DNA of 23,393 nt from Deltaproteobacteria bacterium (lineage in GTDB: Bacteria; Desulfobacterota; Desulfobacteria; Desulfobacterales; Desulfobacteraceae), in assembly GCA_019314105.1 (NCBI GenBank), contig JAFCZY010000018.1, positions 1 through 23,393 on the forward strand. Direction: 5' to 3'. A program made the translations under genes and the position numbers. This document shows, in pieces, positions 1 through 20,462 of this stretch. Numbering within the stretch: position 1 is the first letter of the stretch; each line of letters opens with the position of its first letter. The notes under the pieces are model-generated. The model was not told the DNA's origin and did not search any database. It saw only the letters and a list, made by a program, of their open reading frames with translations.

Positions 1-546
1 AATTATCTCTTTTACCTTTTTTTCATTTATAGAATTTTCATAGGAGTTGATAAAGCAGACAGCAATGGATTCTATTCCGTCTTTTTTGAATTTTCCAAGA
101 ACATCCAAAACCTCTTGCTCATCCACATCCTTAAGTATTTTACCGTCAAAGGTCAGCCGCTCATCTATTTCTGCTCTGTCTGCTCTGGGAACTATTGGTT
201 CCGGGTATTCACTGAAAATATCATAGGCATCATAACGTTTTTCCCTTCCAAGCTCCAGAACATCCCTGAATCCCTTAGTAGTTATCAACGCGGTTCTGGC
301 TCCTTTTCTTTCAATGATAGCATTGATAACCAGGGTGGTTCCATGAATGATTTCTTCAACATTATCCATGAATCCGGGCAGAATTTGTGCAAGTTCTCTG
401 ATGCCCTGTTCAATAGCATTCGACGGATCTGAAGGAGTGGTCAGGCATTTATTGGTATAAAACTCTCCGGTTTTATTATTTACCAGAACAAAATCTGTAA
501 AAGTGCCGCCAATGTCACACCCCAGACGGTAAGTCACTTGCTCCAA
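1..546 (-). CDS. Hydantoinase/oxoprolinase A-type subunit, N-terminal part (cut by window edge)
   Basis: The visible 182 or so codons form the N-terminus of a HyuA/oxoprolinase family protein; the rest lies beyond position 1. The start carries the ASKHA-type phosphate loop LGCDIGGTFTDFVLV, followed by the family signature HGTTLVINAIIERKGA and the TTKGFRDVLELGR segment. The family uses ATP to open cyclic amides or to carboxylate ketones and usually works with a HyuB partner, which would lie further left. The start is uncertain: TTG at 546 follows a GGGGGTG stretch, GTG at 537 gives the usual MTYRLG beginning, and an in-frame ATG lies at 576. It is the last visible gene of the operon, about 80 nt after the mutase. 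Next to an arylsuccinyl-type mutase it is a candidate for the oxindole-ring-opening hydrolase of indoleacetate degradation; an acetophenone- or acetone-carboxylase-like role is the main alternative. Confidence 0.8.
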   Translation of the reverse strand, partial: MEQVTYRLGCDIGGTFTDFVLVNNKTGEFYTNKCLTTPSDPSNAIEQGIRELAQILPGFMDNVEEIIHGTTLVINAIIERKGARTALITTKGFRDVLELGREKRYDAYDIFSEYPEPIVPRADRAEIDERLTFDGKILKDVDEQEVLDVLGKFKKDGIESIAVCFINSYENSINEKKVKEII

Positions 547-1116
547 GTTACACCCCCATAATTTTTTCTTAACCATTTTTTCATTTTTCTATCTGTTTTG
601 AATATTTAAAAATTTATCCATCTAATTAATAAAATTCAGGCTCATCCCATTCGCCGAAGGTCTGCCTGAACACCCCTGCCATTTCTCCCACCGTGGCATA
701 GGCATGGCAGCATTTCACCAGACAGGGCATGACATTCTCATCACCACTGGCTGCTTTCTCAAGTGCTTTAAGGCTATCTGTCACTTCTTTGTTATTTCGG
801 GTTTTTCGAAGTTCTTTTAAATTGGCTTTGGATTTTTTGGCCCATTCTTCGTTATATTCATGAAGTTCCACAGCGCCAGCGTCGGTTTGCTCTGCCTCAT
901 TATCTGTTTTTCCGGGAGTGAGGCCTACTTTTTTATACTCACCTGACTGGAGTCCTTTTTCATACTCATAGGCCTGACTGGATACCTTTCTCTGGATAAG
1001 GCCGCTGGAGATGCATTGGACCATGCCACCCAGTTCCTGGACCTTTTTCATCTCCTCAAGAATTTTTTCTTCCATCTCAAGTGTAAGGGTTTCAATAAAA
1101 TAGGACCCTGCAAGGG

Positions 1117-1228
1117 GATCAACCGTATCCCTTAAACCCACCTCGTCCATGAGCATTTCAAGGGCTCGAAGCGATCAACCGTATACCTTAAACCCACCTC
1201 GTCCATGAGCATTTAAAGGGTTCGAAGC
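1117..1228. repeat. 56-bp imperfect tandem duplication inside the mutase gene
   Basis: Copy A is 1117-1172 and copy B is 1173-1228. They match at 53 of 56 positions, differing at 1129/1185, 1159/1215 and 1165/1221. Read on the coding strand, copy A gives an intact LRALEMLMDEVGLRDTVDP. Copy B changes Ala to Thr, Glu to a TAA stop and Asp to Tyr. The length is not a multiple of three, so it also shifts the frame. Confidence 0.95.
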
Positions 1229-2045
1229 GACCAAAGGGCAGAGCGCGGCGTAGGGATGGTATATGCTTCGTCAAAGGAACAAAGGGCTATGGTCTGAGCA
1301 CCGGAAAGGGCTGCGCCAAGTGCATAATAGGCCCCTCTCATGATATTGTTTTCCGGCTGTTCCTTGGTAAGTCCGGAACCACCGCCGCCAAACAGTCCCC
1401 TTAAAAAGAGTTTTTTCTTTTCTGTAACGCCGTATTCATTTTTCAGCATTTTTGCCCAGAGTTTTCTGGCTGCCCTGAACTTGGCAATTTGTTCCCACAG
1501 GTTACCGTACACATTAAAATTAAAGGAAAATCGCCCTACAAAATCTTCCGGGTGTATGCCGCGCTGCACTACGTTATCGATGTAGGCTTTGGCAATCTCG
1601 AAGGCATAGGCGATTTCCTGAGCCGGTGTGGCTCCGGATTCACGGATATGGTATCCGCACAGGCTCACAGGGTTGGATTTGGGCAGTTCCTTTACCGCAT
1701 ATTCAATTGAGTCCCCGACAAGTCGGACCCCATGCTCAACAGGAAAAATCCAGGCGCCCCGACCAATCATTTCTTTTAAAATATCATTCTGGGGAGTGGT
1801 GGAAATTTGCTCTTTTGAATATCCGAATTTTTCTGCAACCGCCTGATACATGGCCATCATGATGGTGGCCACAGCATTGATGGTCAATCCGGACCCGATC
1901 CGGTCCAGGGGAATGCCGGCAAAAGCGGTTTCAAAATCTTTAAGTGAGTCAACGGCCATGCCAACCCGCCCGACTTCACCTTTCGCCAGGGGATGATCCG
2001 AGTCATAGCCCATCTGAGTGGGCAGGTCAAAGGCCACGTTCAGGC

Positions 2046-2149
2046 CATTTTGACCATTTGCGATCATGAGCTTGAACCGTTCGTTGGTTTCTTCCGGCAT
2101 TTTGACCATTTGCGATCATGAGCTTGAACCGTTCGTTGGTTTCTTCCGG
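2046..2149. repeat. 52-bp perfect tandem duplication inside the mutase gene
   Basis: Copy 1 is 2046-2097 and copy 2 is 2098-2149, identical over all 52 bases. It repeats the codons for PEETNERFKLMIANGQN and shifts the reading frame by one, which breaks the mutase after the RQYTGFG active-site segment. Deleting one copy joins the two frames cleanly. Confidence 0.97.
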
Positions 2150-2385
2150 AGTGCCGAATCCCGTGTACTGCCTCGTGGTCCAGGTACGGCTGCGATAGCT
2201 TTGCGGATGAAGACTGCGTGTAAAGGGGTATTCACCGGGAGCCCCGAGATCTTTTTCATACGTAAATCCCGTTTTTTCAAGATCTTCAGGACCATAGGCC
2301 GGTTTTACCTTTATACCGGACTGATAGATCACCTCTTTTATTGCCCCTCTTTCATCCTTGATATATTTTGCTACACCCATTATTT

Positions 2386-2787
2386 TTACCTCTCTATTAG
2401 ACGATTCATTCCTTTGGTAATTTCCTCAAAAGAGGTTCCGCCGGGAAACACTGCGGCGACTCCCATCTCTTTGAGTTTGGGAATATCCTGGTAGGGAATG
2501 ACGCCTCCCACAGTCAGGTAAACATCATTGAGCTCCTGTTCTTTCATCATATTGATGAGTTTCTCACATATGGGCAGATGCGCTCCTGACATAATGCTTA
2601 ATCCGATGATATCCACAGCTTCCTGGGTGGCCGTTTGCGTGATTTGTTCAAGGGTCTGGTGAAGTCCCGAGTAGATGACTTCGTAACCTGCATCTCTTAA
2701 AGCCAGGGCCACAATTTTTGCACCCTTGTCATGCCCGTCAAGGCCGGGTTTTGCAATCAGTATCCGAATTTTATTTTTGGTTTCCAT
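2386..2787 (-). CDS. B12-binding small subunit of acyl-CoA mutase
   Basis: This 133-residue protein is a stand-alone cobalamin-binding domain of the methylmalonyl-CoA mutase C-terminal type. Near the N-terminus it has the base-off/His-on motif KPGLDGHDKGA, in which the His ligates cobalt. The following GLSIMSGAH and VGGVIP segments match the SxL and GG motifs that hold the nucleotide tail. It lacks the TIM-barrel substrate domain, which lies in the next gene five bases downstream, so the enzyme is a split two-subunit mutase like the isobutyryl-, 2-hydroxyisobutyryl- and arylsuccinyl-CoA mutases. Start ATG 2787 is preceded by AAGGAAA. The reading frame is complete and of normal length, in contrast to the broken large subunit. 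Confidence 0.92.
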   Translation of the reverse strand: METKNKIRILIAKPGLDGHDKGAKIVALALRDAGYEVIYSGLHQTLEQITQTATQEAVDIIGLSIMSGAHLPICEKLINMMKEQELNDVYLTVGGVIPYQDIPKLKEMGVAAVFPGGTSFEEITKGMNRLIER

Positions 2788-2814
2788 AAATCGTTTTCCT
2801 TTATATCTTATTCT

Positions 2815-3789
2815 TTAATCATTGTTTTCAAAAATACAGATTTTACTGGTTATATGTTCAGCCGCGCTTAAGGGGTCTATTGAACCCTCTTGAATTTTTT
2901 GTAAAACTTCTTTGTATTCTTTTGAATTTTTCATGAGTAAAAGCAGTTTTTTCAGGGTCAGGTCCTGTAGCAGCGAATTGAAATAAGACGTTTCCATTGC
3001 ATTTCTTTTTTGATCGACAAAATTATTTTTTTTCATGAAATCAAAATGGGATAAAAAGGTGTCGGCAAGTTCTTTTACCCCGGTCCCATTCTGTGCAATG
3101 GTTTTCAGCACCCTGGGGGTCCAACCTGTTTCACGTGTGATCTTCAGGTTAGGTGGTTTGCGCATGCTGATCATCATTTTAAGCTCGTACACAGAGGCAT
3201 CCGCATCCGGTTTATCACTTTTGTTGACAATAAAGATATCTCCGGTTTCAAGGATGCCGGCTTTGACCGCCTGGATGCCGTCTCCTGTTCCCGGGATGCT
3301 GATAATTCCGGTTGAATGGGCAAGGGTGGTGATATCAAAATCTGCCTGGCCTGCGCCCACGGTTTCAATGATAATGATGTCATATCCCATGGCATCCAGA
3401 ACAATGGAGGCATCTTTTGTGGCCCGGGAAAGGCCGCCCTTTTGCCCCCTTGATGCCATGGACCGGATAAATACTCTTTTATCTGTTGCATGGCGCTGCA
3501 TGCGCAGTCTGTCCCCTAAAATGGCACCGCCGGAAAAGGGACTTGTGGGGTCCACAGCAATGACGGCAATCTTTTTGTCAAGTTTGCGGAATTCTGAAAT
3601 TAATGCATCAATCAGGGTGGATTTTCCCACACCGGGAGATCCGGTAATGCCGATGATAAAGGCATGACCCACATGGGGATACAATTCTTTGAGCAACCCG
3701 AAGACGGTTGGATCATTGTCTTCAATAAGACGGATCATCCGGGCCCCGGCCCTCTGGTTCCCGGCCAGTATGTTCTTGACTTCAAGCAC
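2815..3789 (-). CDS. meaB: MeaB/ArgK-type G3E GTPase, mutase chaperone
   Basis: The 324-residue protein is a MeaB-type P-loop GTPase, which protects B12 mutases and helps load or repair their cofactor. Residues 50-58 carry the Walker A motif (GSPGVGKST). It is followed by VDPTSPFSGGAILGDRLRM, the switch region IIETVGAGQ and the guanine-specificity motif NKSD. The start is a GTG at 3789 that overlaps the last codons of the GntR gene by 8 bases, so translation is probably coupled. Its position directly ahead of the two mutase subunits indicates that it serves this mutase rather than a general methylmalonyl-CoA mutase elsewhere in the genome. Confidence 0.93.
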   Translation of the reverse strand: MLEVKNILAGNQRAGARMIRLIEDNDPTVFGLLKELYPHVGHAFIIGITGSPGVGKSTLIDALISEFRKLDKKIAVIAVDPTSPFSGGAILGDRLRMQRHATDKRVFIRSMASRGQKGGLSRATKDASIVLDAMGYDIIIIETVGAGQADFDITTLAHSTGIISIPGTGDGIQAVKAGILETGDIFIVNKSDKPDADASVYELKMMISMRKPPNLKITRETGWTPRVLKTIAQNGTGVKELADTFLSHFDFMKKNNFVDQKRNAMETSYFNSLLQDLTLKKLLLLMKNSKEYKEVLQKIQEGSIDPLSAAEHITSKICIFENND

Positions 3790-4471
3790 TCTTTTGTTTC
3801 ATTTCCTCTTGTTTTAATTGAGTTAAAACTGCATTCTTTCCTTTAATGATGTGCGCCCTGACAAGCTTTTCAACTGCTTTGCCATCCCGGTTTTTAATGG
3901 CATCAAGCATTTTGATATGGTCTTCATTACTCTTATGGGCATATCCGGGTTGCCTTAAGATAATCTGCCTGAACATTGAGATTTGGGCCCGGAGCTGGTT
4001 GATCATTTTGATCAGTTTCGGGGTTTCGCTCAAAGCATATAGAAGATCATGAAATTCCGTATTAATTTTTTGAAGTTTGTCATTGTTTTCTTTTAATTCA
4101 AGGCAACTCTTAAATTCTTTTATCTTTTTTTCCAGAGGAAGCAGATCCCTGCTCGTATGGTTAACAGCCGCCAGCCGTGCCGCATAGGCTTCAAGAACAC
4201 TTCTAATTCCAAAAGTCTGTTCGATATCAGCTTTTGTCAGGGTAACCACCTGGAAGCCGCCTGACCCGGTTTTTTCAATCCAGTCTTCTCTTTCAAGCTT
4301 ATGCAAGGCTTCGCGCAACGGAGTCCTGCTGATCCCCAGCATGTCGGCGATTTTGCTTTCCACAAGCCTTGAGCCCGGCTCAATGGTCTGGTCAATGATG
4401 GCGTTTTTCAAATACTCAAATACATCATGGCCTAAGGAATTTCTTTCTTTAAAACTGTTATTCAATTTCAT
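3782..4471 (-). CDS. GntR-family transcriptional regulator with FCD domain
   Basis: The 229-residue protein has a GntR winged helix (about residues 10-75; SRLVESKIADMLGISRTPLR is the helix-turn-helix) and a C-terminal all-helical FCD ligand domain. The FCD domain has histidines in FHDLLYALS, DHIKML and VRAHIIKG, in line with the metal-binding form. Start ATG 4471 overlaps the dehydrogenase stop (ATGA). Such regulators are usually repressors released by a pathway acid or acyl-CoA. Being inside the catabolic operon, it probably controls the operon and itself. The GTATAC triplet ahead of iorA at 11415-11434 is the best candidate operator; GTATAC-centred sites are common for this family. The ligand is not visible from sequence. 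Confidence 0.9.
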   Translation of the reverse strand: MKLNNSFKERNSLGHDVFEYLKNAIIDQTIEPGSRLVESKIADMLGISRTPLREALHKLEREDWIEKTGSGGFQVVTLTKADIEQTFGIRSVLEAYAARLAAVNHTSRDLLPLEKKIKEFKSCLELKENNDKLQKINTEFHDLLYALSETPKLIKMINQLRAQISMFRQIILRQPGYAHKSNEDHIKMLDAIKNRDGKAVEKLVRAHIIKGKNAVLTQLKQEEMKQKSA

Positions 4472-5634
4472 TTGGATAAAATTTCCCTTGCAATTGTGGT
4501 CTGTAAGACTTCATGGGTCCCACCTCCGTAAAGCAGAAAACGATTATCCCGATAATATCTTTGTACGGAATACTCCATGGAGTATCCATATCCCCCGAAA
4601 ATCCGCATGGCTTCATCCGAAGCGCTGCAGGCAGATTCAACAGTAAAGTACTTTGCCATGGAAGCAAGATTGAGACATTCCTTGCCCTGATCAATCATAT
4701 GGGTAACCTTATCCACCATGAGCTGGCCCGCCTCAAGATTCACCGCCATATTAGCGATTTTTGCCTGGATAAGCTGGTACTTACCAATGGGTTTGCCAAA
4801 CTGTTCCCGTTCCTTGCAATACTTAATGGCATCATCCATGGCAGCCCTGTGAAGCCCAAGGGCCAAAGCTGCCGTCATGATTCTGATTTCAGACAGGATT
4901 TTTAAAAGTACGCCCAGGCCTCGTCCTTCTTCTCCCAGTCTGTACTCAACTGGCACATGGCAATCTTTAAAATATATTTCCGATATGGAAGAGGTCCTGG
5001 TACCCAGAAGGTCAAACGGCTTGGAGTAGGAGAATCCGGGAGTAGACGCAGGAACAAGGAAAAAAGCCAGCCCTCTTAGCCCAAGGGAAGGGTCAGTCTG
5101 GCATAAAACCGTATGAAAATCCCCTTTTGGGCCACTGGTGGACCATGTTTTCATGCCATTAATCACATACCCGTCACGGGTTTTTTCAGCTTTTGTCCGT
5201 ACAGCACTTAAGTCAGATCCGGCATTGGGTTCGGTCAGCTGAAAAGCCCCCATCTTATCACCTTTCAGGGCAGGGTAAAGAAATTCTTCATACATTTCTT
5301 TAGTGCCATAAAGGTACAGGCCATTGGTTCCCATCAGACACTGCATGGCGGTAGTGGCAGCAAGGCTCATCAATCCCCTTGCAAGCTCCTGCATGGCAAT
5401 ACAGTAAAGGGTTGTATTTCCTCCTGAACCCCTTACTTTTTTTGGATACCGTATACCGAAAATTCCCATTTTTCCCAGTTTCTTAAAAAGATGCTGGGGA
5501 AATTCGCCTTTATTATCATACTCCGTTGCAACGGGAATCACTTCCTTGTCAACAAACTGGGCCATGGTAAATCTTACCATGTCTTCGGCGTTGGATCTGA
5601 TTTTATTGGATTTATTTTTATTGGGTTGGGTCAT
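4468..5634 (-). CDS. iaaF: Acyl-CoA dehydrogenase, probably decarboxylating (arylmethyl-malonyl-CoA dehydrogenase type)
   Basis: The 388-residue protein is a full-length FAD acyl-CoA dehydrogenase, with the FAD-binding segment FQLTEPNAGSDLSAVRTKA and the C-terminal IFGGYGYSMEY. The catalytic Glu of short- and medium-chain enzymes sits in a YEGT motif near the C-terminus; here the aligned stretch is LLYGGGTHEV with Gly371 at that place. No Glu stands exactly where isovaleryl-CoA dehydrogenase has its alternative base, though a Glu occurs one residue earlier (LSEIRI). Benzylmalonyl-CoA dehydrogenase IaaF of Aromatoleum is reported to remove the 2-carboxy group instead of a C2 proton, so a missing base would fit a decarboxylating enzyme in the same role. 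The symbol is assigned by context and this feature and is tentative. Start ATG 5634 overlaps the etfA stop and has a GGAGGTG ribosome site. Electrons probably go to the adjacent ETF. Confidence 0.85.
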   Translation of the reverse strand: MTQPNKNKSNKIRSNAEDMVRFTMAQFVDKEVIPVATEYDNKGEFPQHLFKKLGKMGIFGIRYPKKVRGSGGNTTLYCIAMQELARGLMSLAATTAMQCLMGTNGLYLYGTKEMYEEFLYPALKGDKMGAFQLTEPNAGSDLSAVRTKAEKTRDGYVINGMKTWSTSGPKGDFHTVLCQTDPSLGLRGLAFFLVPASTPGFSYSKPFDLLGTRTSSISEIYFKDCHVPVEYRLGEEGRGLGVLLKILSEIRIMTAALALGLHRAAMDDAIKYCKEREQFGKPIGKYQLIQAKIANMAVNLEAGQLMVDKVTHMIDQGKECLNLASMAKYFTVESACSASDEAMRIFGGYGYSMEYSVQRYYRDNRFLLYGGGTHEVLQTTIAREILSK

Positions 5635-6824
5635 GATGCACCTCCGCAGGACAGCTGCTTTATGAGTTCCGGTACAATTTCATGGACATCGCCGACAATG
5701 CCCCAGTTCGCCAGTTTAAAAATAGGGGCCAAAGGGTCATTGTTGATGGCAATGATATAGCGTGATCCTGTCATGCCTGCGGTATGCTGGACAGCGCCCG
5801 ATATTCCGCATGCAATATAGATTTCTGGTCGGATGGTCTTCCCTGTCTGGCCGACCTGGGCATCATGGGGAAGAATCCCCTGCTCCATAATTAATCGGGT
5901 ACAGGCAAGTTCACCTCCCAGAATATCAGCCAGTTCTTTGAGCATGGCAAAACCCTTTTCACCATTCACTCCTCTGCCGCCTGCTACAATTACGGTTGCA
6001 TCTGAAATATCGGTCCCCGGTTTTTTCTGAGTTACCTTTTCAAGAATTTTTGTTCTGATATCCTGCTCTTTTAAAGAAATTTCATGCCGGATAAGCATTG
6101 GATTTTCAGGTTTATAGGGGGCTGATTCCATAACGCCCGGTCTTACCGTTGCCATTTGTGGGCTTGCGTATCTACAGGCAATGGTTGCCATGACATTTCC
6201 ACCAAAAGCAGGTCTTGTCTGGAACATGAGTTTTTCATCAGGGTCAATGGCAAGCTGGGTACAGTCTGCTGTAAGGCCGGTACCGATACGCCTTGACACT
6301 CTTGGCGCCAGATCACGGCCCAGGGCGGTTGCCCCTATTAATAAAATATTGGGTTTATAGGTAAGTACAAGATCTTCAATAACAGTTGTATAGGCGATGG
6401 TCCTGAAATTTTCCAGAAGATCATCTTCAACAAGATAGACATTTTGGGCACCATGGTCATGCAGGGTCTGTATCAGATGAGAAACATCCTTGCCAAGCAG
6501 CACAGCAGACACTTTATGGCCCATATCTTTGGCAAGCTCCTGTGCCTTTCCTAAAAGTTCTAAGGCAACCCCGGCAAGTTTTCCATCGGTCTGCTCTGCA
6601 AAGACCCAGACACCTTCCCTGTCGGAAAAGTCGGGAACTTTTCTTGGTTTAATATCAGATTCTATGGCGTGGTTTTTTTTGCAGGTTTCAATACATGAAC
6701 CGCAGGATGTGCAGCGTTCTGTAACAGATGCAATACCATCCTTCATTTCAATGCCTTCATAAGGACACGCCCTGATGCATCTCTGGCATCCGTCACACTT
6801 TTCTTCTATAATCCAGATTGTCAT
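5631..6824 (-). CDS. etfA: Electron transfer flavoprotein alpha subunit with N-terminal 2[4Fe-4S] ferredoxin domain
   Basis: The first 50 residues are a clostridial-type ferredoxin with two clusters: Cys10, 13, 16 and 20, then Cys38, 41, 44 and 48. The remainder is a normal EtfA. Its C-terminal FAD domain contains VAGGRGVNGEKGF, VGQTGKTIRPEIYIACGISG and AINNDPLAPIF. At 397 residues it is longer than plain EtfA (about 320) by the ferredoxin extension. EtfA forms a heterodimer with EtfB and passes electrons from acyl-CoA dehydrogenases. The extension suggests electron exchange with ferredoxin or another iron-sulfur partner, as in CarE- and LctC-like proteins of anaerobes. Start ATG 6824 has a clear GGAGG site. 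etfB is immediately upstream and the dehydrogenase overlaps its stop. Confidence 0.95.
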   Translation of the reverse strand: MTIWIIEEKCDGCQRCIRACPYEGIEMKDGIASVTERCTSCGSCIETCKKNHAIESDIKPRKVPDFSDREGVWVFAEQTDGKLAGVALELLGKAQELAKDMGHKVSAVLLGKDVSHLIQTLHDHGAQNVYLVEDDLLENFRTIAYTTVIEDLVLTYKPNILLIGATALGRDLAPRVSRRIGTGLTADCTQLAIDPDEKLMFQTRPAFGGNVMATIACRYASPQMATVRPGVMESAPYKPENPMLIRHEISLKEQDIRTKILEKVTQKKPGTDISDATVIVAGGRGVNGEKGFAMLKELADILGGELACTRLIMEQGILPHDAQVGQTGKTIRPEIYIACGISGAVQHTAGMTGSRYIIAINNDPLAPIFKLANWGIVGDVHEIVPELIKQLSCGGAS

Positions 6825-6857
6825 TTTTTCCTCCGAAAAATCCGGGTTTCTTAACGG

Positions 6858-7664
6858 TTACAAACGATAAGCAATGGTTGTATCACTTTTTTTCAACCGG
6901 TCAATAAGATCTGACACCACCTCTTTGTTTGACCCTTTCAATAATTCATTCTGGCGCTTAAAATTGGGTGTAAAGGTTTTGATCACATGGGTGTTAGATC
7001 CTTCCAGGCCCACTTCAATTGTCTTTACACCAATATCGGCAGCATTCCATACCGTGATGGGAGACTTTTGTTCACACGCAGAAATAAGCTGGCCCATATG
7101 GGGATATCTTGGTTCGTTCAGTTCTGAAATCACGGTCAAAAGTGCAGGCATTTTACAGGCTACACGTTCAAAACCATGTTCAAGTCTTCTTTTAACAACA
7201 ATTTGTTTTTCATCCACAGATTCAATATCATTGACGTAGGTTGCCTGGGCAATATCAAGCCAGTCTGCCACCTGAGGGCCGATCTGTGCAGTATCACCGT
7301 CGATGGCCTGGTGACCGCAGAGTATTAGATCATAGTCCTTTATTTTTTCTATCCCTTTGCTCAAGGTATAAGATGTGGCCCAGGTGTCAGCACCCGAAAA
7401 GGCCCTGTCAGAAAGCAAAAAAGCCTTATCCGCACCCATGCCCATGGCCTGGGTCAACACATCCACAGCCTGTGGCGGCCCCATGGAAAGTGCCATCACC
7501 TTGCCCCCAGTTTCTTCCTTGATCTTTACTGCTGCTTCAAGGGCATGCAGATCATCAGGGTTCATAATGCTTTCCAAACCTTCTCTGATCAGGTTCCCTG
7601 TCTTTGGATCAAGCTTAATATTTGTTGTATTGGGAACCTGTTTTACAAGTACGATGATATCCAT
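6858..7664 (-). CDS. etfB: Electron transfer flavoprotein beta subunit
   Basis: The 268-residue protein is a full-length EtfB beginning MDIIVLVKQVPNTTNIKLDP. The nucleotide-binding part contains LILCGHQAIDGDTAQIGPQ, and the central part has VVKRRLEHGFERVACKMPAL. The DGDTAQIGP form, rather than the DDCNQTGQ form of housekeeping ETFs, is typical of ETFs from anaerobes, including the bifurcating group. It pairs with the EtfA encoded 33 nt downstream and would carry the second flavin (or AMP). Start ATG 7664 follows a GGGAGAT ribosome site. The pair most likely serves the acyl-CoA dehydrogenase two genes downstream. Confidence 0.95.
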   Translation of the reverse strand: MDIIVLVKQVPNTTNIKLDPKTGNLIREGLESIMNPDDLHALEAAVKIKEETGGKVMALSMGPPQAVDVLTQAMGMGADKAFLLSDRAFSGADTWATSYTLSKGIEKIKDYDLILCGHQAIDGDTAQIGPQVADWLDIAQATYVNDIESVDEKQIVVKRRLEHGFERVACKMPALLTVISELNEPRYPHMGQLISACEQKSPITVWNAADIGVKTIEVGLEGSNTHVIKTFTPNFKRQNELLKGSNKEVVSDLIDRLKKSDTTIAYRL

Positions 7665-7679
7665 AATCTTGTATCTCCC

Positions 7680-8870
7680 TTATATAATTCCTTTTTCTTT
7701 AAATTCTGCAAGAGTGGCCGCATCATACCCCAGCAGATTGCCGTATATTTCCCGGTTCTGTTCACCGAATCTGGGAGGAAAGGAAAGTTTCCGGTCAGAT
7801 TCTTTAAGAAAAGGTGTCATATTGGGTGGCGGGGCAAGGGTTACTTTTGTGCCGGTTTTCGGGTCTGTTGAAGTGAGAATTCGTTTTGCAATCAATGGGT
7901 CTTCCACGACTTCATTCACATTTTTGATCTTTGAAATAGGAACGGTAATGGAGTTGAACAACTCAATAATTTCTTCAGAAGTGTATTGTTCTGTGATGGC
8001 ATTAATGGCAGCGTTCAGATTTGTTACATCGAAAATTCTGCCTTGATTTTTTTTATACTCTTCTTTTGCAAGGGATTTGAACATGTCTAAAGATACCACG
8101 GATTCCCATTGCCGATCATTGCCTACAGCGAGATATACAAACCCGTTGCTGGTTTTATAAACTGATACCGGGCTGAAAAATTCATGGGTGTTCCCGCGTC
8201 TGGAGATAGTCGCTCCAAAGCTCTTTGAAAGGGCGATGGGTACGGTCAACCAGGATACCGTGGATTCAAACATGGACAGGTCAATCCGGGTGCCTTTTCC
8301 AGTAGCTGCCCGTTTAAAGAGGGCTTTCATTAAAAGTCCGTATCCGTGTTCACTGGTTCCCATATCCGGCAGGGGAATGCCCAATACCTGGGGATCACCG
8401 TCCGCTTCTCCCGTAAGTTCCATTAAGCCCGATCTTGCCTGTAGAATCGGGTCATAGGCCCCTTCGTTGGAATCCGGGCCAAACCCTGTCAGTCCCAGCC
8501 AGATAATGTCGGGTTTGACGTCTTTCATTATTTCATAGGCAATGCCGAGTTTTTCATAGTTTTTGGGTAATTGGTTGGTGACAAAAATATCAACATCAAG
8601 TTCTTTGACCAGTTTTTTGAATATCTCCTGACCCTGGGGGTCAGCCAGGTTCAAGGACAGGGCTTTTTTCCCGGAGTTGATGCATAGAAAATAGGAGTTC
8701 ATCCTTTTTTCACCCAAGACGTTCTCGCCGATGAACCGGTTGGGATCTCCATATACCGGGTGTTCCAGTCTTACGACATTCATTCCGTCCTGGGCCAGTC
8801 TGTAAGTGAGATAGGGGGCAACGGTTGCCTGTTCAAGTGATAGTACAGTGAGGGTCTTAAAAAGTTCCAT
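7680..8870 (-). CDS. Class III (CaiB/BaiF family) CoA-transferase
   Basis: The 396-residue protein has the family's CoA-binding N-terminus (VLSLEQATVAPYLTYRLAQD; DPNRF; NSGKKALSLNL) and the catalytic aspartate in LPDMGTSEHG at residue 169, the same number as in formyl-CoA transferase. It would move CoA between two organic acids without ATP. In the Aromatoleum indoleacetate pathway a family III transferase (IaaL, a phenylsuccinyl-CoA transferase) activates the arylsuccinate before the mutase step, and this gene is placed to do the same. The true acids cannot be read from sequence; succinyl-, benzylsuccinyl- or other aryl acids are possible. Start ATG 8870 lies inside the end of iorB with a GGAGA site, so the two are coupled. 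Confidence 0.9.
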   Translation of the reverse strand: MELFKTLTVLSLEQATVAPYLTYRLAQDGMNVVRLEHPVYGDPNRFIGENVLGEKRMNSYFLCINSGKKALSLNLADPQGQEIFKKLVKELDVDIFVTNQLPKNYEKLGIAYEIMKDVKPDIIWLGLTGFGPDSNEGAYDPILQARSGLMELTGEADGDPQVLGIPLPDMGTSEHGYGLLMKALFKRAATGKGTRIDLSMFESTVSWLTVPIALSKSFGATISRRGNTHEFFSPVSVYKTSNGFVYLAVGNDRQWESVVSLDMFKSLAKEEYKKNQGRIFDVTNLNAAINAITEQYTSEEIIELFNSITVPISKIKNVNEVVEDPLIAKRILTSTDPKTGTKVTLAPPPNMTPFLKESDRKLSFPPRFGEQNREIYGNLLGYDAATLAEFKEKGII

Positions 8871-9444
8871 GAGCGTCTCCTGAGGCTATTTTTCTGCCGG
8901 TTTCATGGCAGGTATCAAAAATCTTTAAGTTTTTTTCCTTAAACGGTCCGGGGCTGATACTATCCACCGTAGCCCTTAAATCATCTGCGCTCAAAGGTCC
9001 CACTCCAAAGGCGGAATAAAATGCAATCATGGCAAGGTTCGTGGACCTGGGAGACCCGAGTGCCATGGCGGTTTTTGCAGCTTCCATGGCATAGGGTTCA
9101 ATTTGCATTTTATCAAGATAGCCTGCCACCCGTTCATCCGGGAAGGCATTGGAGGGGGCATTGGCAAAAAGCTTCCCGCCTTTTTTCAGATAGGGCAGGT
9201 GACGGTAGGCTTCTGACTCGTCCATTGATATTAGAAAGTCGGCGGCACCAGCCCGGATCAGGCTGGATCCTGCATCCCCGATCCTCAGATGGGACACGAC
9301 AGAGCCTCCCCGCTGGGCCATGCCGTGGGTTTCTGCGCCCAATATATTATATCCTTTATTTAAAGCAGTTGTGGCAAAGATTTTGGTCATGAATAAAATT
9401 CCCTGGCCACCCAGACCGCTTAATACATAATTCATGGTTTTCAT
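8857..9444 (-). CDS. iorB: Indolepyruvate (arylpyruvate):ferredoxin oxidoreductase beta subunit
   Basis: About 195 residues match the 2-oxoacid oxidoreductase gamma-type domain that forms the IorB subunit: NYVLSGLGGQGILFMTKIFA at the N-terminus, then AETHGMAQRGGSVVSHLRIG. With IorA it oxidatively decarboxylates aryl-2-oxoacids such as indolepyruvate or phenylpyruvate to the arylacetyl-CoA, reducing ferredoxin. ATG 9444 is preferred because GGAG lies nine bases before it; an in-frame ATG at 9459 has no clear site. It starts about 20 bases after the iorA stop and its end overlaps the CoA-transferase start. The frame is intact although its partner iorA is broken. Confidence 0.9.
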   Translation of the reverse strand: MKTMNYVLSGLGGQGILFMTKIFATTALNKGYNILGAETHGMAQRGGSVVSHLRIGDAGSSLIRAGAADFLISMDESEAYRHLPYLKKGGKLFANAPSNAFPDERVAGYLDKMQIEPYAMEAAKTAMALGSPRSTNLAMIAFYSAFGVGPLSADDLRATVDSISPGPFKEKNLKIFDTCHETGRKIASGDAHGTF

Positions 9445-9465
9445 AGTGATAGTCTCCATATCGGG

Positions 9466-11299
9466 TTATACTTTTTTAATCGCATTCCGCGGACAGATCT
9501 GTAAGCAGACACCGCATTGGGCGCAGAGGACCGGATTTATTTCAGTCTTTTTGGTTTCGTCATTCCTGACCATGGCAGGACATTCAAATCTGAGATGGCA
9601 GAAACCACAGTCATCACAATCATCGGAAATTTCAATCTCGAATTTTTCAGGTATGGCTTTATCCTTGAATGCGATAACACAGGGATGGCGGGAAATAATC
9701 ACTGCAATACCGCCGTCAGGATCATTCACATACTCGGCAGCTTCTTTAACCACTTTGATCATATGCCGGGTGTCATAGGGATCCACCACCTTTAAGTATT
9801 CAACACCACACCCTTTGACAATGGTTTCAAGAGAAATGGCATTTCCTTTCCTGCCGTCCACCCGGTCTCCCTGAGTAATGGCGGGCTGCATACCGGTCAT
9901 GGCTGTAATATGGTTGTCCAGAATAACCAGGATAAACCGCGCATCATTGTAAACCGCATTGATCAGGCCTGTGGTGCCGGAATGAAAAAATGTGGAATCC
10001 CCTATGGTGGCCACGATGGGCTTTTTTACATCATCCTGGATATAGGCATTCCAGAATCCCGATGCCATGGTAATGCCGGCCCCCATATCAAGGACTGTGT
10101 CCACAACGCCTAAATTGATTCCAAGGGTGTAGCACCCGATATCAGATGGGAAAATAGCCTTGGGCAATGCTTTTCTGATGGAATAAAAAGAAGCCCTGTG
10201 AGGGCAGCCTGGGCAAAGGGTGGGTTTTCTGATGGGAAGTTCAAGGTTTCCCACAAGCCCGAAGGCCTCTCTGCTACAGTCGCTGTCTGACAATGGTTCC
10301 AGGGCGCAGTCTAAAAGCGCCGTGTTCAACAGCGCTTCAATTTTTTCAGGCAAAAGTTCACCTTCCATGGGAACGTGGCCGGACAAGCGCCCCAGCGTTT
10401 TATGTTTATCTCTTAACATATATTCAATCACCGTGTCGGTCTCTTCAATGACCAGAACCTTGTCACAGGCAGCCATAAATTCGTCAGCCAGATTTTCTGG
10501 AAAAGGATAGGGCGCCCCGAGTTTTAACACCGGGATATCGTCTCTTTTATATTCTTCAAACAGATCCCGGACAACACTGGACGGCACTCCACCGGTGACG
10601 ATACCGAACGGATATTGTTTTCCGTTTATAAGCGTGTGCATATTATAGGGCGTCAGGGTGCTGAATTTTTTCGCGATCTGTACATGTTTTTCATTCAATG
10701 CCTTGTGCTGTATAAACCTGAATTTTGGGGTAGAGGCCCATCGTGAGGGGTCTCGTTTGAACTTGGCCTTGGTTATATTGCTTTCAAGCTTGTCATATTT
10801 GATGTTCTGCCGGGCATGACAGATCCTGATGGCGGGTCTTAATAATACGGGTATCTGGAATTCTTCAGACAGATGAAAGCCAAATTTAATCATTTCTCTT
10901 GCTTCTTCAGGACTTGCCGGGTCAAAGACCGGTACTTTGCCCATCCGTGCCATCATTCTTGAGTCCTGCTCGGTCTGGGATGAATGGGGACCGGGATCAT
11001 CACACGAGATAATAATAAATCCGCCAATATTGCCGATATAAGCCGCTGACATGAACGAGTCCGCAGCCACATTCAGGCCCACCATTTTCATGCAGCAGGC
11101 CGCCCGTTTGCCGGATATGGCAGCAGCAAAGGCATTGTCATTCAATACCGGTGTTCAGGTTGGCTGCTTTTGAAAACCTTACCATCTCGGGAAGGATTTC
11201 AGAACTTGGCGTACCCGGATAGGATGTCATGATCTGACAGCCGGCTTCTAAAAGCCCAAGAGCCATTGCGCCGTTTCCTAATAAAAACTCTTCTTTCAT
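9466..11299 (-). pseudogene. iorA: Indolepyruvate:ferredoxin oxidoreductase alpha subunit, frameshifted near N-terminus
   Basis: The gene starts at ATG 11299 with a GAGGAT site and encodes MKEEFLLGNGAMALGLLEAG, then SYPGTPSSEI, before hitting TGA at 11138-11140 after NLNTGIE. The remainder continues in another frame from about 11145 to 9466 (about 559 codons). It has the IorA-typical MKMVGLNVAADS, DDPGPHSSQTEQDSR, a TPP-binding C-terminal domain (ATIGDSTFFHSGTTGLINAV) and a C-terminal 2[4Fe-4S] domain ending VLCAQCGVCLQICPRNAIKK. IorA proteins have a W-x-x-N-E-K-x-A stretch exactly at the break. Seven bases remain where about 21 are expected, a loss of about 14, which also explains the shift. 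The lost Glu is expected to contact the TPP ring. Restored length would be about 615 residues, normal for IorA. First gene of the operon. Confidence 0.88.
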
Positions 11300-11413
11300 T
11301 ACAAGATCCTCGATAAAATCTTAAGTTAAAAGGGTTAAAACGTTGTAAATTCTGCAAGGTTCCATGACCGTCTCCATTTTTAAAACAGATCAGAGCTTAC
11401 CGCAACAATAGAT

Positions 11414-11450
11414 AGTATACTGTATACGGTATACACTCAATCGGTGTCAA
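11414..11450 (-). promoter_or_regulatory. Operon promoter overlapping a triple GTATAC operator
   Basis: Reading on the minus strand, TTGACA (11450-11445) is followed after 18 bases by TATACA (11426-11421), a good sigma-70-type promoter for iorA and the genes after it. Three GTATAC hexamers at 11415-11420, 11422-11427 and 11429-11434 have an exact 7-base period and cover the -10 region. A repressor there would block the promoter. The GntR/FCD protein of the operon is the likely binder. The -35 box begins 11 bases from the stop of the neighbouring kinase gene. Confidence 0.7.
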
Positions 11451-16864: not shown

Positions 16865-18436
16865 TTAAACCGGCAAAGCCTTTTGTTCTTCCTGTTTTTT
16901 TAATTCGAATCGTTTCACCTTGCCAGTGGCAGTTTTAGGCAGATCGTCCACAAAATAAATCCAACGGGGGAATTTATAGTGGGCCAGCTCTTTTTTTACA
17001 TATGCTTTTATTTCTTTCTCAAGCTCCTCTGATGGAGAAAATCCCTTATTTAACACAAGATAAGCACAGGGTTTTACAAGATTTTCTTCATCCCTGCTAG
17101 GTACAACCGCACTTTCAAGAACAGAAGGATGCCCTATCAGACATGCCTCAACTTCAATAGGGGAAACCCATATACCGCCAACCTTTAACATGTCATTTGA
17201 CCGTCCCACATAAAAGAAAAATCCCTCTTCATCTACAAAAAATTTATCATCGGTATTAAACCATTCGCCTAACATGGCTTCTTTGGTTTTTTCATGTCTG
17301 TTCCAATAATAGGCTGCCGTGCTGTCTCCTTTAATCAAAAGAGTTCCGATCTCTCCTTGCGGCACTTCATTGAAATCATTGTCCACAATCTTTGCTTCAT
17401 ATCCGGGCACAATCTGCCCCGTACTTCCCGGTCGGATATCTTCCACCCGGTTGGAAACATAGATATGAGCGATCTCCGTAGACCCGATACCATCAAGGAT
17501 GTCCACATTAAATTGATCTTTCCAGCGGTGGAAGATATCTGCGGGCAAGGCTTCGCCTGCAGACACACAAAGCCTGATCCCATTTACCTTTCCTTTTTCC
17601 GCTGCGAGCATGGCGCCGTACAGAGTGGGGACCCCAAAGAACAAAGTGGGTTGGTGAAGGGCAATGGTCTTATAGACAGATTCCGGTGTGGGGCGTTCCG
17701 GCATTAATACGGTTGTAGCCCCGACACTGAAAGGAAAATAAGTTCCATTACCCAGTCCATAGGCGAAAAACAATTTTGCAGCGGAAAAACAAATATCGTT
17801 TTCTTTGATCTGTAACACCTGCTTACCGTAGGTTTCAACGCTGAACAGCATATCATGCTGCAAATGGACTGTTCCTTTGGGTTTTCCGGTTGAGCCTGAA
17901 CTGTACAGCCAGAAACAGGTATCATCGGGACTGGTCAGAGCAGGTTCAAGCGTATCGGACTGGTCACTGATAAAATTCTCATATGTCATGGTATCCGGCT
18001 TGTCCTGGCTGCTATTAACCATGATGACCCGCTCAAGAAATTTCAATTCGGATTTGATTTCTTCAATATTGAAATACAGACTTTCATCAACTACCAGAAT
18101 CCTTGCCCGGCTGTCATTTAAAAAGTAAAGATAATCCTTTGGCCGCATCAGGGTATTCAGACAGATGGGAACTGCACCGGATTTAATAGAGCCAAAAAAA
18201 ACAACCGGGTAGAGTTCCATATCCAGCATCAGCACGGCCACTCGATCTTCCATTCGGATTTCTGACGACAAAAGGGCATTGCCGAACCGATTGACTTCTC
18301 TGGCAAGTGTTCCATAGGTCATCTGCCGGTCTTCACACAGAACAGCGACCTTGTCTTTTCTTCCTTCACGGATATTTCTATCCACAAAATAATCTGCGGC
18401 ATTAAAATATTCAGATTCAAGAACTTCCTGTATCAT
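16865..18436 (-). CDS. Benzoate-CoA-ligase-family aryl acid:CoA ligase (AMP-forming)
   Basis: About 523 residues form an acyl-adenylate ligase of the benzoate-CoA-ligase branch. It has the P-loop YSSGSTGKPKGTVH, GVPTLYGAML, SAGEALPADIFHRW, LDGIGSTEIAHIY, the hinge FYVGRSNDMLKVGGIWVSP, and the catalytic Lys in LPKTATGKVKRF near the C-terminus. It would activate an aromatic or cyclic acid with ATP and CoA to AMP and diphosphate. Benzoate, 2-aminobenzoate and indoleacetate are all possible; the pathway predicted from the other operon would yield 2-aminobenzoyl-CoA. ATG 18436 is preferred over the TTG at 18442 because AGGAGG lies nine bases before it. It is the last gene of a sigma-54-type operon with the symporter, which implies uptake and activation of the same acid. 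Confidence 0.9.
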   Translation of the reverse strand: MIQEVLESEYFNAADYFVDRNIREGRKDKVAVLCEDRQMTYGTLAREVNRFGNALLSSEIRMEDRVAVLMLDMELYPVVFFGSIKSGAVPICLNTLMRPKDYLYFLNDSRARILVVDESLYFNIEEIKSELKFLERVIMVNSSQDKPDTMTYENFISDQSDTLEPALTSPDDTCFWLYSSGSTGKPKGTVHLQHDMLFSVETYGKQVLQIKENDICFSAAKLFFAYGLGNGTYFPFSVGATTVLMPERPTPESVYKTIALHQPTLFFGVPTLYGAMLAAEKGKVNGIRLCVSAGEALPADIFHRWKDQFNVDILDGIGSTEIAHIYVSNRVEDIRPGSTGQIVPGYEAKIVDNDFNEVPQGEIGTLLIKGDSTAAYYWNRHEKTKEAMLGEWFNTDDKFFVDEEGFFFYVGRSNDMLKVGGIWVSPIEVEACLIGHPSVLESAVVPSRDEENLVKPCAYLVLNKGFSPSEELEKEIKAYVKKELAHYKFPRWIYFVDDLPKTATGKVKRFELKKQEEQKALPV

Positions 18437-18457
18437 AATCAATTTCCTCCTGATAAT

Positions 18458-19951
18458 TTATTTGGTTAAGACTGGATGAAAAAATAAACTAAGACTTTTT
18501 TCTTCTGTTTTGCCAGGGGTCGTCAGGTAAGAGCCGACAAAGAAGACAATACCTGAAATAATAAATGCCGCAAGGAATCCATTTAGTTGAAAAAATGATT
18601 TCTGCGGGAAAAGAACCATGGCTTTTCCACCGACAAAAAAGAAAGTAACATTTAACGAAACGCCCACAAGTATGGATAAAATAGCACCGGTTTTGGTCGC
18701 CCGCTTCCAGTAATAGGCACCCCAAAGAGCGAAAAAGGTTACAGCAACCGTACCGAATGCAATGATGGAAAGTTCTGCCACAGGGGTGTTGGGATTCCAG
18801 GCAATAACCACACATGTCGCCATAATAATCGCCACAAACATCCTTGCAATATTAATGAGTTCCGATGCTTTGGTTGCCGGTCTCATTGTTTTAATAATAT
18901 CAATTGAAAGATTGGTAGCATTCCCAAAAACAAGGCCGTTCACCGTTGACATAGCCGCGGTAAAACCGCCAGCCACAGCAAATGCTGCCAGCCAGTCCGG
19001 CATGGTAGCCGAAGCAACAAGCCCATATATTTTATCGGCTTCAACCCCTTTAAGTCCCGGAACAATAGTATTGCCGGCGATGCCAATAAGGGTGGCTATG
19101 GTAATGACGACCAGGCAAAGGCCGCCAAATGAGAGGAACATCGCTTTTAAGCCTTTTACTGACCGACTTGAATACGCATGCATAAAGGGTTGTGGAAAGC
19201 AGACACATCCCAGGCACATGGCGGATGCCATGCCAAAAATCATGGGATAACTCCAGACTTTGCCCCCTGCCCAGCCAATCTGAAACAGATTGGGATGCTT
19301 TGCCAGAACCATCTCCATGGTCGGGACGAACCCGCCATTTTTCATCATGACAAAAAAGAAAAGGACAAACACCATGATGGAAAAAAAGACGCCCTGAATG
19401 GCATTAACCCAGGCAGCCCCTTTCATCCCACCCATTATCAGGTATAATGCAATAAAAAAGGGAACAAAAAACAATCCCATATGAAAAGAGATCATACCTT
19501 CACTCATGGCTTCCAACATGACTCCGATTCCCTGAATCTGGGCGACCAGATATGGAATGGATGCGACAAGAACCACAAGTACCAGGATAATTTTTGTGGC
19601 TGTCCCGTATCTCTCACCAAAGGGTGCCCCCATGGTCATCCAGTTTCTGGCCCTTCCCAAAAGGAATGTTTTTTTGTGCATATAATACCATAAGAACCCT
19701 AAAGGAACCAGATTGGCTGTCAGCACGTATAAAGAGCCAAACCCCAGACGATACCCGAAACTTGACATGCCAAACATGGAAAATGCACTTAAAAAGGATG
19801 CCAGAAGGCTGAAAATTAGAACAAAATAGCCAAGACTTGACCCAGCAACAAAATAATCATCCGCACTTTTTGTAAATCCTTTCTGAAATGCTATATAGCT
19901 GATATAAACCGATACCAGGCAAATACCTGTAATAATAACGACGGCTACCAT
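18458..19951 (-). CDS. Sodium:solute symporter (SSS family)
   Basis: The 497-residue protein is highly hydrophobic, with about 13 predicted membrane helices by eye, and has SSS features: an N-terminal helix, then KSADDYFVAGSSLGYFVLIF, LGRARNWMTMGAPFGERYG and VAGGFTAAMSTVNGLVFGNA, the last matching the small-residue-rich sodium-site helix. The family imports acids such as acetate, pantothenate, proline or aromatic acids with sodium across the inner membrane. The substrate is inferred from the ligase gene 15 bases downstream to be an aromatic or organic acid. Start ATG 19951 follows GGAGAAT. It comes right after the small membrane protein, separated by one base, so the two probably act together. 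Confidence 0.92.
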   Translation of the reverse strand: MVAVVIITGICLVSVYISYIAFQKGFTKSADDYFVAGSSLGYFVLIFSLLASFLSAFSMFGMSSFGYRLGFGSLYVLTANLVPLGFLWYYMHKKTFLLGRARNWMTMGAPFGERYGTATKIILVLVVLVASIPYLVAQIQGIGVMLEAMSEGMISFHMGLFFVPFFIALYLIMGGMKGAAWVNAIQGVFFSIMVFVLFFFVMMKNGGFVPTMEMVLAKHPNLFQIGWAGGKVWSYPMIFGMASAMCLGCVCFPQPFMHAYSSRSVKGLKAMFLSFGGLCLVVITIATLIGIAGNTIVPGLKGVEADKIYGLVASATMPDWLAAFAVAGGFTAAMSTVNGLVFGNATNLSIDIIKTMRPATKASELINIARMFVAIIMATCVVIAWNPNTPVAELSIIAFGTVAVTFFALWGAYYWKRATKTGAILSILVGVSLNVTFFFVGGKAMVLFPQKSFFQLNGFLAAFIISGIVFFVGSYLTTPGKTEEKSLSLFFHPVLTK

Positions 19952-19952
19952 T

Positions 19953-20243
19953 TTAATTCTCCTTTATGCTGGATTCTTCAGTGATTGTTGTTTTAAGTGC
20001 AGCTATAATTTCTTCAAGATCATCGTCATACAATGCCAGGTCGGTCCAGAACAGATAAATCCATTCAATGACAAAAAGGACGGCACCAATCAACAGCATA
20101 ATGAAAGCCCATGAAGGCATTCCCATGATCAAACTGACTTCGCCATAACTTCCATATCCAATAGGACACCAGCACAACACAGTGAGAACAAGAAATACGA
20201 TTAGAAAAAAAGTTTTTTTGTTTTTGTTTACATTAGACGCCAT
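19953..20243 (-). CDS. Small two-helix membrane protein paired with the symporter
   Basis: The 96-residue protein has a basic N-terminus (NVNKNKKT), two hydrophobic stretches (about 11-32 and 44-68) with a CPIGYGSYGE loop between them, and an acidic C-terminus (YDDDLEEII). Short two-helix proteins of this kind commonly precede SSS transporters (YhdT with PanF, DUF3311 and similar families), but I cannot assign this one to a named family with certainty. A role as accessory subunit of the symporter is inferred from adjacency alone. Start ATG 20243 has an AAAGGAGA site. It is the first gene of the operon, about 70 bases after the expected sigma-54 start point. Confidence 0.8.
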   Translation of the reverse strand: MASNVNKNKKTFFLIVFLVLTVLCWCPIGYGSYGEVSLIMGMPSWAFIMLLIGAVLFVIEWIYLFWTDLALYDDDLEEIIAALKTTITEESSIKEN

Positions 20244-20324
20244 TCACTTTCTCCTTTTTGGTTTAAAGATGTTAAAAATCTCAGGGCATATTTATCAATA
20301 ATAACTTCATCGGTATTTATAGAT

Positions 20325-20340
20325 AGCAAATCATGTGCCA
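20325..20340 (-). promoter_or_regulatory. Sigma-54 (-24/-12) promoter of the symporter-ligase operon
   Basis: The minus strand reads CTGGCACATGATTTGCT (first C at 20341), matching the sigma-54 consensus TGGCAC-N5-TTGCW at every fixed base, with the required 10 bases between GG and GC. Transcription is expected to start near 20314, about 70 bases before the first gene. An NtrC-type activator is encoded immediately upstream. Confidence 0.85.
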
Positions 20341-20444: not shown

Positions 20445-20462
20445 ACTAGCAAGCTTCTTTCA

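Follow-up and report, generated by a model that had tools for sequence, protein, structure and literature searches.

A probable front part of an anaerobic indoleacetate degradation operon in a Desulfobacula-like bacterium

The operon and its genes

The window analyzed here, a stretch of 23,393 nucleotides (positions 1–23393), makes up the whole of contig C284 in a genome assembly of 2.70 Mb and 478 contigs. Its minus strand carries, at positions 1–11299, an operon whose genes are separated by short gaps or overlap, and which comprises, from right to left, iorA and iorB (alpha and beta subunits of indolepyruvate:ferredoxin oxidoreductase), a class III CoA-transferase gene, etfB and etfA (electron transfer flavoprotein, ETF), an acyl-CoA dehydrogenase gene, a GntR-family regulator gene, meaB (a mutase chaperone GTPase), the genes for the B12-binding small subunit and the large subunit of a mutase, and the N-terminal part of hyuA. 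We interpret this 11.3-kb segment, with a probability of about 0.85, as the front part of an operon for anaerobic indoleacetate degradation (iaa operon) in a Desulfobacula-like bacterium. The interpretation is based on gene content and order, on the kinship of IaaF, IaaG, IaaL and HyuA with the Aromatoleum proteins, on conserved motifs and residues, and on synteny. An earlier note on this DNA had proposed an iaa-like operon from the sequence; the genes that it listed are all present on the minus strand, the family matches agree with them, and its proposal is supported and largely right, with the GntR gene (3782–4471) as a member that it did not name. Several close homologues of the CoA-transferase are named Desulfobacula sp. 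or Desulfobacteraceae bacterium, for which reason we call the organism Desulfobacula-like; the label of sulfate reducer is likewise inferred from kinship to proteins named Desulfobacula.

The iorA gene (9466–11299) is read in two frames (11299–11138 and 11145–9466), the longer of which scores 553.5 bits with TIGR03336 (cut-off, 650.9). The best models for iorB (8857–9459) are those of IorB, all below their cut-offs, and its product is 92% identical to the copy in the genus-mate G042. The cut-offs are exceeded by the GntR regulator (Pfam GntR, 59.4 bits; FCD, 86 bits), which occupies the same position in relatives, by meaB (2815–3789; TIGR00750, 337 bits) and by the iaaH-like small subunit of the mutase (2386–2787; TIGR00640, 149.6 bits). 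The split B12 mutase of the earlier note is real in so far as the small and large subunits are separate, but the three frames of the iaaG-like large subunit (626–2380) come down to two internal near-exact repeats. Similarly, the hydantoinase-A-type gene is present as hyuA (1–576), predicted to encode the ATP-dependent subunit of a lactamase-like enzyme, but it is truncated by the contig end to 192 amino acids, compared with 712 in G042; this piece scores 139.5 bits with caprolactamase alpha and 79.4 bits with acetophenone carboxylase, both below the cut-off. Two active-site peculiarities had also been claimed without being named; if they are the GGG motif of the dehydrogenase and the RGLFGGGGSG loop of the mutase, as we presume, both are present in the sequence.

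Another contig of the same genome, C223, was found with two Aromatoleum buckelii queries, HyuB and the large subunit of the molybdenum hydroxylase. It contains hyuB, cut at the extreme end of the contig, a PaaK-like ligase gene, the genes for the FAD, FeS and Mo subunits of a molybdenum hydroxylase, the TRAP genes dctPQM, genes for a second molybdenum hydroxylase, and one whose product has a molybdopterin-binding domain. The HyuB and molybdenum hydroxylase that the earlier note had recommended looking for are thus both present in the genome, and in G042 they stand in operon order: there, the full order from iorA to a thiolase gene lies on one contig, with hyuA and hyuB adjacent, in an operon of ~31 kb. 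Because this order is continuous, C223 should follow the left end of the window, with part of hyuA missing between them. For the HyuA of G042 and the HyuB of C223, the nearest models are those of the lactam hydrolase caprolactamase (525 and 259 bits; cut-offs of 1000 not reached), followed by acetophenone carboxylase subunits (300 and 111 bits), a kinship that would fit the opening of an oxindole. The large subunit of the first molybdenum hydroxylase of C223, which is accompanied by FAD and [2Fe-2S] subunits, is 45% identical to that of A. buckelii, and 4-hydroxybenzoyl-CoA reductase alpha is the nearest model for each of the two molybdenum large subunits, neither of which reaches its cut-off. 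An indoleacetate-CoA ligase of the IaaB type was not found on C223, the part of the genome to which this search was confined; in some relatives, ligases at least 30% identical to that of A. buckelii are located near the operon. The genome also contains a gene, cut by a contig end, that matches TIGR03200 (470.4 bits; cut-off, 464.45), which we take to be bamA of anaerobic benzoyl-CoA breakdown.

Farther along the operon, G042 (L093, 7597–8427) and G045 (L184, 16349–17158) harbor a gene for YqeB, involved in the maturation of the selenium-dependent molybdenum cofactor (TIGR03309, above the cut-off), a possible sign that one of the two molybdenum hydroxylases depends on selenium. An extra HyuA in G031 (L086, 2755–4899), with no HyuB seen directly adjoining, is 53% identical to the HyuA of the A. 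buckelii iaa cluster, compared with ~35% for the operon type. In the right part of the window, positions 16865–23340 contain a gene of the benzoate-CoA ligase family (TIGR02262, 647 bits, above the cut-off), a sodium/solute symporter-like gene (below the model cut-offs), a gene for a small membrane protein and, on the same strand, genes for a sigma-54-type response regulator and a PAS histidine kinase. This group is probably a unit for the uptake and activation of an aromatic acid.

Kinship with the iaa proteins of Aromatoleum

An iaaF primer taken from PMC8360864, a study cited here from excerpts throughout, had matches in 10 stretches of the genome collection, including one in A. buckelii U120, in which the genes around the match resemble the iaa cluster. 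For all four proteins searched, the best match in the A. buckelii genome lies within this cluster. The dehydrogenase of the window (4468–5634) matches IaaF with 339 bits (next match, 263), and its CoA-transferase (7680–8870) matches the cluster homolog with 292 bits (next, 140). Since the window copies of the mutase and HyuA are broken or cut, the G042 orthologs were used as queries, which gave 644 bits with IaaG (next, 320) and 390 bits with HyuA (next, 222). The dehydrogenase is thereby predicted to be an IaaF-like, decarboxylating (2-aminobenzyl)malonyl-CoA dehydrogenase, and the transferase an IaaL-like (2-aminophenyl)succinyl-CoA CoA-transferase. In the comparison with Aromatoleum by alignment and tree that the earlier note had called for, here carried out with A. 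buckelii, the mutase (by alignment score) and the dehydrogenase (by score and tree) side with the iaa proteins; with HyuB and a molybdenum hydroxylase also found, its interpretation was not refuted.

According to PMC8360864, all IaaF orthologs carry GGG in place of YEG, the loss of CO2 is proposed to take over from proton abstraction, and the GGG motif is also reported for benzylmalonyl-CoA dehydrogenases. The dehydrogenase of the window has GGG instead of the usual YEG at positions 4519–4527. With a threshold of E ≤ 1e-110, iaaF was found in 22 of 389 genomes of the class, including that of the window, and all 22 sequences contain the motif (21 as GGGTHE and one as GGGAHE); the corresponding motif of the A. 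buckelii IaaF is GGGTSE, and none of the eight A. buckelii paralogs used carries GGG. The tree included IaaF and these eight paralogs from among 14 A. buckelii dehydrogenase matches, the other five being left out, and in it the 22 IaaF sequences of the class and the A. buckelii IaaF form one clade with a support of 100/100. The GGGTHE motif is also found in all 120 of the nearest homologs (the best 120 of 6474). A CoA-transferase or mutase gene was seen in the examined stretches of 19 of the 22 iaaF genomes.

The mutase pieces of the window are 38–64% identical to the A. buckelii IaaG, and the small subunit is 50% identical over 121 amino acids to the product of a B12-binding open reading frame beside it. 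The intact G042 mutase is 55% identical to IaaG and 35% identical to the methylmalonyl-CoA mutase-like protein of A. buckelii. Two residues bear on the substrate, which we take to be those numbered Tyr89 and Arg207 in methylmalonyl-CoA mutase; 2-hydroxyisobutyryl-CoA and isobutyryl-CoA mutases presumably have Ile or Phe at position 89 and Gln at position 207, a pattern also visible in the alignments. The operon mutase has Tyr and Arg, whereas the aligned 2-hydroxyisobutyryl enzyme has Ile and Gln. Tyr and Arg are likewise present in 17 of 17 aligned operon mutases, a set that leaves out the interrupted genes of G316 and the window (whose residues were read from its sequence), and in the A. buckelii IaaG. 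The same 17 rows carry the loop RGLFGGGGSG, which is also glycine-rich in A. buckelii, while four rows of the methylmalonyl or isobutyryl type have HxQTSGW or HxQTSGR. The Tyr and Arg pair, as opposed to the Gln of the isobutyryl-type rows, suggests a carboxylated substrate, and the glycine-rich loop is consistent with room for an aryl group.

Electron transfer, IorAB and two operon builds

The closest solved relative of the EtfB of the window (6858–7664; motif DGDTAQIGP) is CarD, with 275.6 bits compared with 91 bits for human ETF, and that of EtfA (5631–6824) is CarE, with 406 bits compared with 147 bits; the latter alignment covers the whole length, including two N-terminal [4Fe-4S] motifs. 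The five best solved relatives (186–276 bits for EtfB and 245–406 bits for EtfA) are, we assume, all of bifurcating types, and the DGDTAQ motif, which is seen in the alignments, we take to be a mark of electron-bifurcating (group 2) ETFs. The motif is present in 15 of 15 EtfB sequences, and both cluster motifs in 15 of 18 EtfA sequences, the remaining three being fragments or frame-shifted. An ETF gene accompanies iaaF in 18 of the 22 stretches but was not seen in those of G316, G013, G168 and G387 (the G013 contig begins at iaaF). The operon ETF thus appears to resemble bifurcating ETFs more closely than simple ones. PMC8360864 terms the ETF of the sulfate-reducer iaa operons non-bifurcating; it also leaves the anaerobic re-oxidant of IaaF open and states that the Aromatoleum ETF does not serve. 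A CarDE-like ETF beside IaaF is therefore a direct candidate for this role. In excerpts of PMC6085437, Car couples NADH oxidation to the reduction of ferredoxin and caffeyl-CoA, and it is possible that the operon ETF confurcates with ferredoxin reduced by IorAB.

The iorAB genes directly adjoin the CoA-transferase gene in six of the 22 iaaF genomes (that of the window, G042, G245, G072, G198 and G303); in G072 and G198 they are located on a contig that breaks inside the CoA-transferase gene, and in G303 it is iorB, at a contig edge, that shows the adjacency. IorA is located within 10 kb of the operon in three further genomes (G041, G056 and G074), at a distance of ~37 kb in G118 and on another contig in two (G013 and G191), so that IorA or IorB of the operon type occurs in 12 of the 22; in the other 10, no IorA of at least 60% identity was seen. 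The genome of the window contains a second IorA that is 39% identical. When the subfamily is defined as at least 64% identity to the G042 IorA, as read by hand from the list of matches, it comprises 42 of the 389 genomes, and it occurs in 11 of the 22 iaaF genomes and 31 of the 367 others (Fisher p = 1.9e-6, uncorrected for kinship). It is therefore associated with the iaa operon yet not exclusive to it, and IorA was rejected as an exclusive marker of iaa genes. The examined stretches of G333, G115, G325 and G219 contain the subfamily without a mutase or CoA-transferase gene. In G333 (L175 and L176), the order is iorAB-gntR-paaK-dctPQM, with mutase, CoA-transferase and hyuAB absent from the 30 kb examined; the group may represent a more general module for arylacetates with kinship to parts of the iaa operon. 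In the excerpts of PMC5109826, IorAB of sulfate reducers is proposed to make arylacetyl-CoA from arylpyruvate, and the formation of one such IorAB on phenylpyruvate is reported for another sulfate reducer. The IorAB of the operon could feed indoleacetyl-CoA made from indolepyruvate straight into the pathway, which would link it to tryptophan.

Following the IorA genes in genomes without iaaF, as judged by the threshold given above, led to a second build of the operon, designated build B, as distinct from build A with etfBA-iaaF. In 14 sister operons, etfBA-iaaF is missing, and the CoA-transferase gene is followed by the GntR gene wherever the contig continues; the mutase was seen in eight of them, and the stretches of the other six stop earlier. 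In place of etfBA-iaaF, an MmdA-like carboxyltransferase gene and the gene for another dehydrogenase (cassette B) lie beside iorAB. The build-B loci are L166, L169–L172, L177–L180, L182–L187, L189, L190, L193 and L194, of which L187 contains the dehydrogenase only. In G338 the dehydrogenase gene stands alone before the contig end, in G092 cassette B is situated between iorB and the CoA-transferase gene, and in G345 it is ~14 kb away with other genes between. In this last genome (L185, 3616–18696), iorA is separated from cassette B by a second, distant hyuAB, an IaaB-like ligase gene and TRAP-like genes. The carboxyltransferase scores 750 bits with TIGR01117 (mmdA; cut-off of 998.8 not reached) and 595 bits with a solved chain named hypothetical methylmalonyl-CoA decarboxylase alpha; a glutaconyl-CoA decarboxylase was rejected, GcdA scoring 99 bits. 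All 19 copies of the dehydrogenase carry the normal YEG. None of the genes near cassette B was recognized as one for a biotin carrier, although no model search aimed at one was made.

The 37 genomes with a CoA-transferase or mutase gene include 19 with iaaF, 14 with cassette B and four with neither (G047, G110, G304 and G359). The two cassettes were never seen together in the stretches examined of 42 genomes (22 with iaaF and 20 with cassette B, one of the latter having only a carboxyltransferase fragment), a count made without a genome-wide search for cassette B in the iaaF genomes. No core gene was seen in six cassette-B genomes; the stretches of five end at or near iorA, and that of the sixth (G034) has none in ~10 kb downstream of iorB. 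In trees of the mutase (27 rows of at least 500 amino acids) and the CoA-transferase (28 rows of at least 370 amino acids), builds A and B are interleaved, and parsimony gives four changes on each. A single build-B clade is rejected (AU p = 0.0057 for the mutase and 0.0004 for the CoA-transferase), and strongly supported branches force one change by label A and two by label B in the mutase tree, and two and three, respectively, in the CoA-transferase tree. The outer rows of the mutase tree all belong to build A, though build B was sought only via IorA. These trees favor more than one exchange of the cassette, although an exchange of core genes between strains would look alike. The simplest reading of build B is that a decarboxylase and a dehydrogenase would together replace the decarboxylating dehydrogenase, a substitution that would also be consistent with a mutase that yields an alkylmalonyl-CoA.

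The proposed pathway, its alternatives and related systems

From the sequences we infer every reaction, substrate and direction of electron flow in the following pathway. Indolepyruvate, derived from tryptophan, would be oxidized by IorAB to indoleacetyl-CoA and reduced ferredoxin; alternatively, free indoleacetate would enter via the TRAP transporter and the PaaK-like ligase. The 2-oxindole would then be produced by a molybdenum hydroxylase, and HyuAB would open this lactam with ATP to (2-aminophenyl)succinyl-CoA. The IaaL-like transferase would shift CoA to the other carboxyl group, and IaaGH, aided by MeaB, would rearrange the product to (2-aminobenzyl)malonyl-CoA. IaaF would then oxidize and decarboxylate it to 2-aminocinnamoyl-CoA with the neighboring ETF as acceptor, and beta-oxidation would lead to 2-aminobenzoyl-CoA. 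It is tempting, at slightly less than even odds, to join these elements into a tentative model in which two exchangeable builds are both fed indoleacetyl-CoA by IorAB: build A with IaaF and a CarDE-type ETF, which may confurcate with the ferredoxin of IorAB, and build B with a biotin-dependent, MmdA-like decarboxylase, perhaps energy-conserving, and a YEG dehydrogenase.

Several observations weigh against the assignment to indoleacetate. Identity to the A. buckelii proteins is no more than 35% for HyuA and 31% for HyuB, which makes the ring opening the weakest link, and the ligase of C223 is PaaK-like (TIGR02155, 396 bits; cut-off, 646) and unlike the ligase of the Aromatoleum cluster. The operon subfamily of IorA is shared with the 31 genomes that lack iaaF. 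Around the IaaF-like genes of G168 and G387, the stretches examined (20.0 and 6.5 kb, respectively) showed no further iaa genes; therefore, a GGG dehydrogenase of the IaaF clade is not always seen within an iaa operon. Moreover, the comparison is with A. buckelii, A. aromaticum EbN1 being absent from the iaaF primer matches, and the genome of the window is incomplete and probably a mixture of strains. Some of these points would suit an operon that degrades another arylacetate or arylpyruvate, such as those from phenylalanine or tyrosine, with iaa-like genes turned to a different aryl- or alkylsuccinate. The formation of an IorAB on phenylpyruvate (PMC5109826), the PaaK-like ligase and the distance of HyuAB from the Aromatoleum pair all speak for it. 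On the other side stand the consistent relationships of IaaF, IaaG and IaaL. Furthermore, we know of no role in phenylacetate breakdown for a lactam-opening HyuAB and a molybdenum hydroxylase, and we regard this alternative as unlikely.

The same residues and relationships bear on a more ordinary operon, composed of a methylmalonyl-, isobutyryl- or 2-hydroxyisobutyryl-CoA mutase and a branched-chain acyl-CoA dehydrogenase. The separate mutase subunits and the presence of MeaB agree with it, as does the large subunit, which among solved structures scores best with a 2-hydroxyisobutyryl-CoA mutase (407.8 bits). However, a mutase of these three types was rejected because of the Tyr and Arg at positions 89 and 207, where the 2-hydroxyisobutyryl enzyme has Ile and Gln, and the closer identity to IaaG; together with the GGG of the dehydrogenase, this leaves such an operon largely refuted and extremely improbable. 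It is also conceivable, though very unlikely, that the operon is a remnant of a dead pathway, given that iaaG is read in three frames and iorA in two. The breaks in iaaG, however, coincide with repeats of ~60 bases: at joint 1 (2039–2149), 2039–2097 repeats 2092–2149 (59 alignment columns, 97% identical), and at joint 2 (1117–1234), 1117–1178 repeats 1173–1234 (62 bases, 94% identical), and the pieces that flank them overlap by 50 and 58 bases when aligned to the intact G042 gene. The two pieces of iorA correspond to residues 1–54 and 60–618 of the G042 IorA, with five residues absent at the frame break. The genes of G042 are intact (mutase, 548 amino acids; hyuA, 712; iorA, 619), and the mutase is a single frame of 542–560 amino acids in the 17 aligned relatives; it is also interrupted in G316 and G359. 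A second iaaG-hyuA copy on contig C288 of the same genome (L110), 86–91% identical to the window over three long segments, indicates that the bin is probably a mix of two strains; less probably, this copy is a second operon. The frame breaks of iaaG, whose joints are likely artefacts, and of iorA are thus most likely assembly faults. The gene cluster would most likely serve the anaerobic breakdown of auxin, a plant hormone, and perhaps also that of tryptophan.

The core of this operon is of a known kind, since iaa operons of sulfate reducers with ETF are already in print: in its excerpts, PMC8360864 predicts iaa operons in Desulfatiglans anilini, strain NaphS2, Desulfocarbo indianensis and Ferroglobus, and reports an ETF paralog for D. 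anilini, for further sulfate reducers and also for Ferroglobus. In the literature searched, which was seen in part and excludes the 2012 and 2016 iaa papers, neither build B nor an operon-borne iorAB was found to be mentioned. The additions are iorAB next to the operon, the CarDE-like ETF and build B. The association of IaaF with such an ETF offers a testable candidate for re-oxidizing this enzyme. If true, the iorAB link would join the breakdown of tryptophan to that of auxin, and build B, which predicts an alkylmalonyl-CoA decarboxylase with an aromatic substrate, would illustrate how a single pathway step can be swapped between one enzyme and two.

The operon shares the GGG-type IaaF, IaaGH, IaaL, HyuAB and a molybdenum hydroxylase with the iaa cluster of Aromatoleum (A. 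aromaticum EbN1, from the excerpts of PMC8360864, and A. buckelii U120). Unlike that cluster, it has iorAB, etfBA, meaB, GntR and TRAP genes in or next to it, as well as a PaaK-like ligase and a second molybdenum hydroxylase. With the operons of sulfate reducers and Ferroglobus in PMC8360864 it has in common the IaaF ortholog and an ETF, but iorAB is not mentioned in those excerpts, and the ETF called non-bifurcating there is nearest to CarDE here. The carboxyltransferase of cassette B belongs to the same family as methylmalonyl-CoA decarboxylase alpha and propionyl-CoA carboxylase beta; it differs in scoring below the mmdA cut-off and in its position beside a YEG dehydrogenase and iaa genes. 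Finally, the operon shares with the CarCDE complex (6fah) the two [4Fe-4S] motifs of EtfA, with alignment over the whole length, the DGDTAQ motif of EtfB and an enoyl compound of the cinnamoyl-CoA type. By contrast with CarCDE, the catalytic Glu is missing from IaaF, CO2 would be lost in the reaction, and its direction would be that of oxidation.

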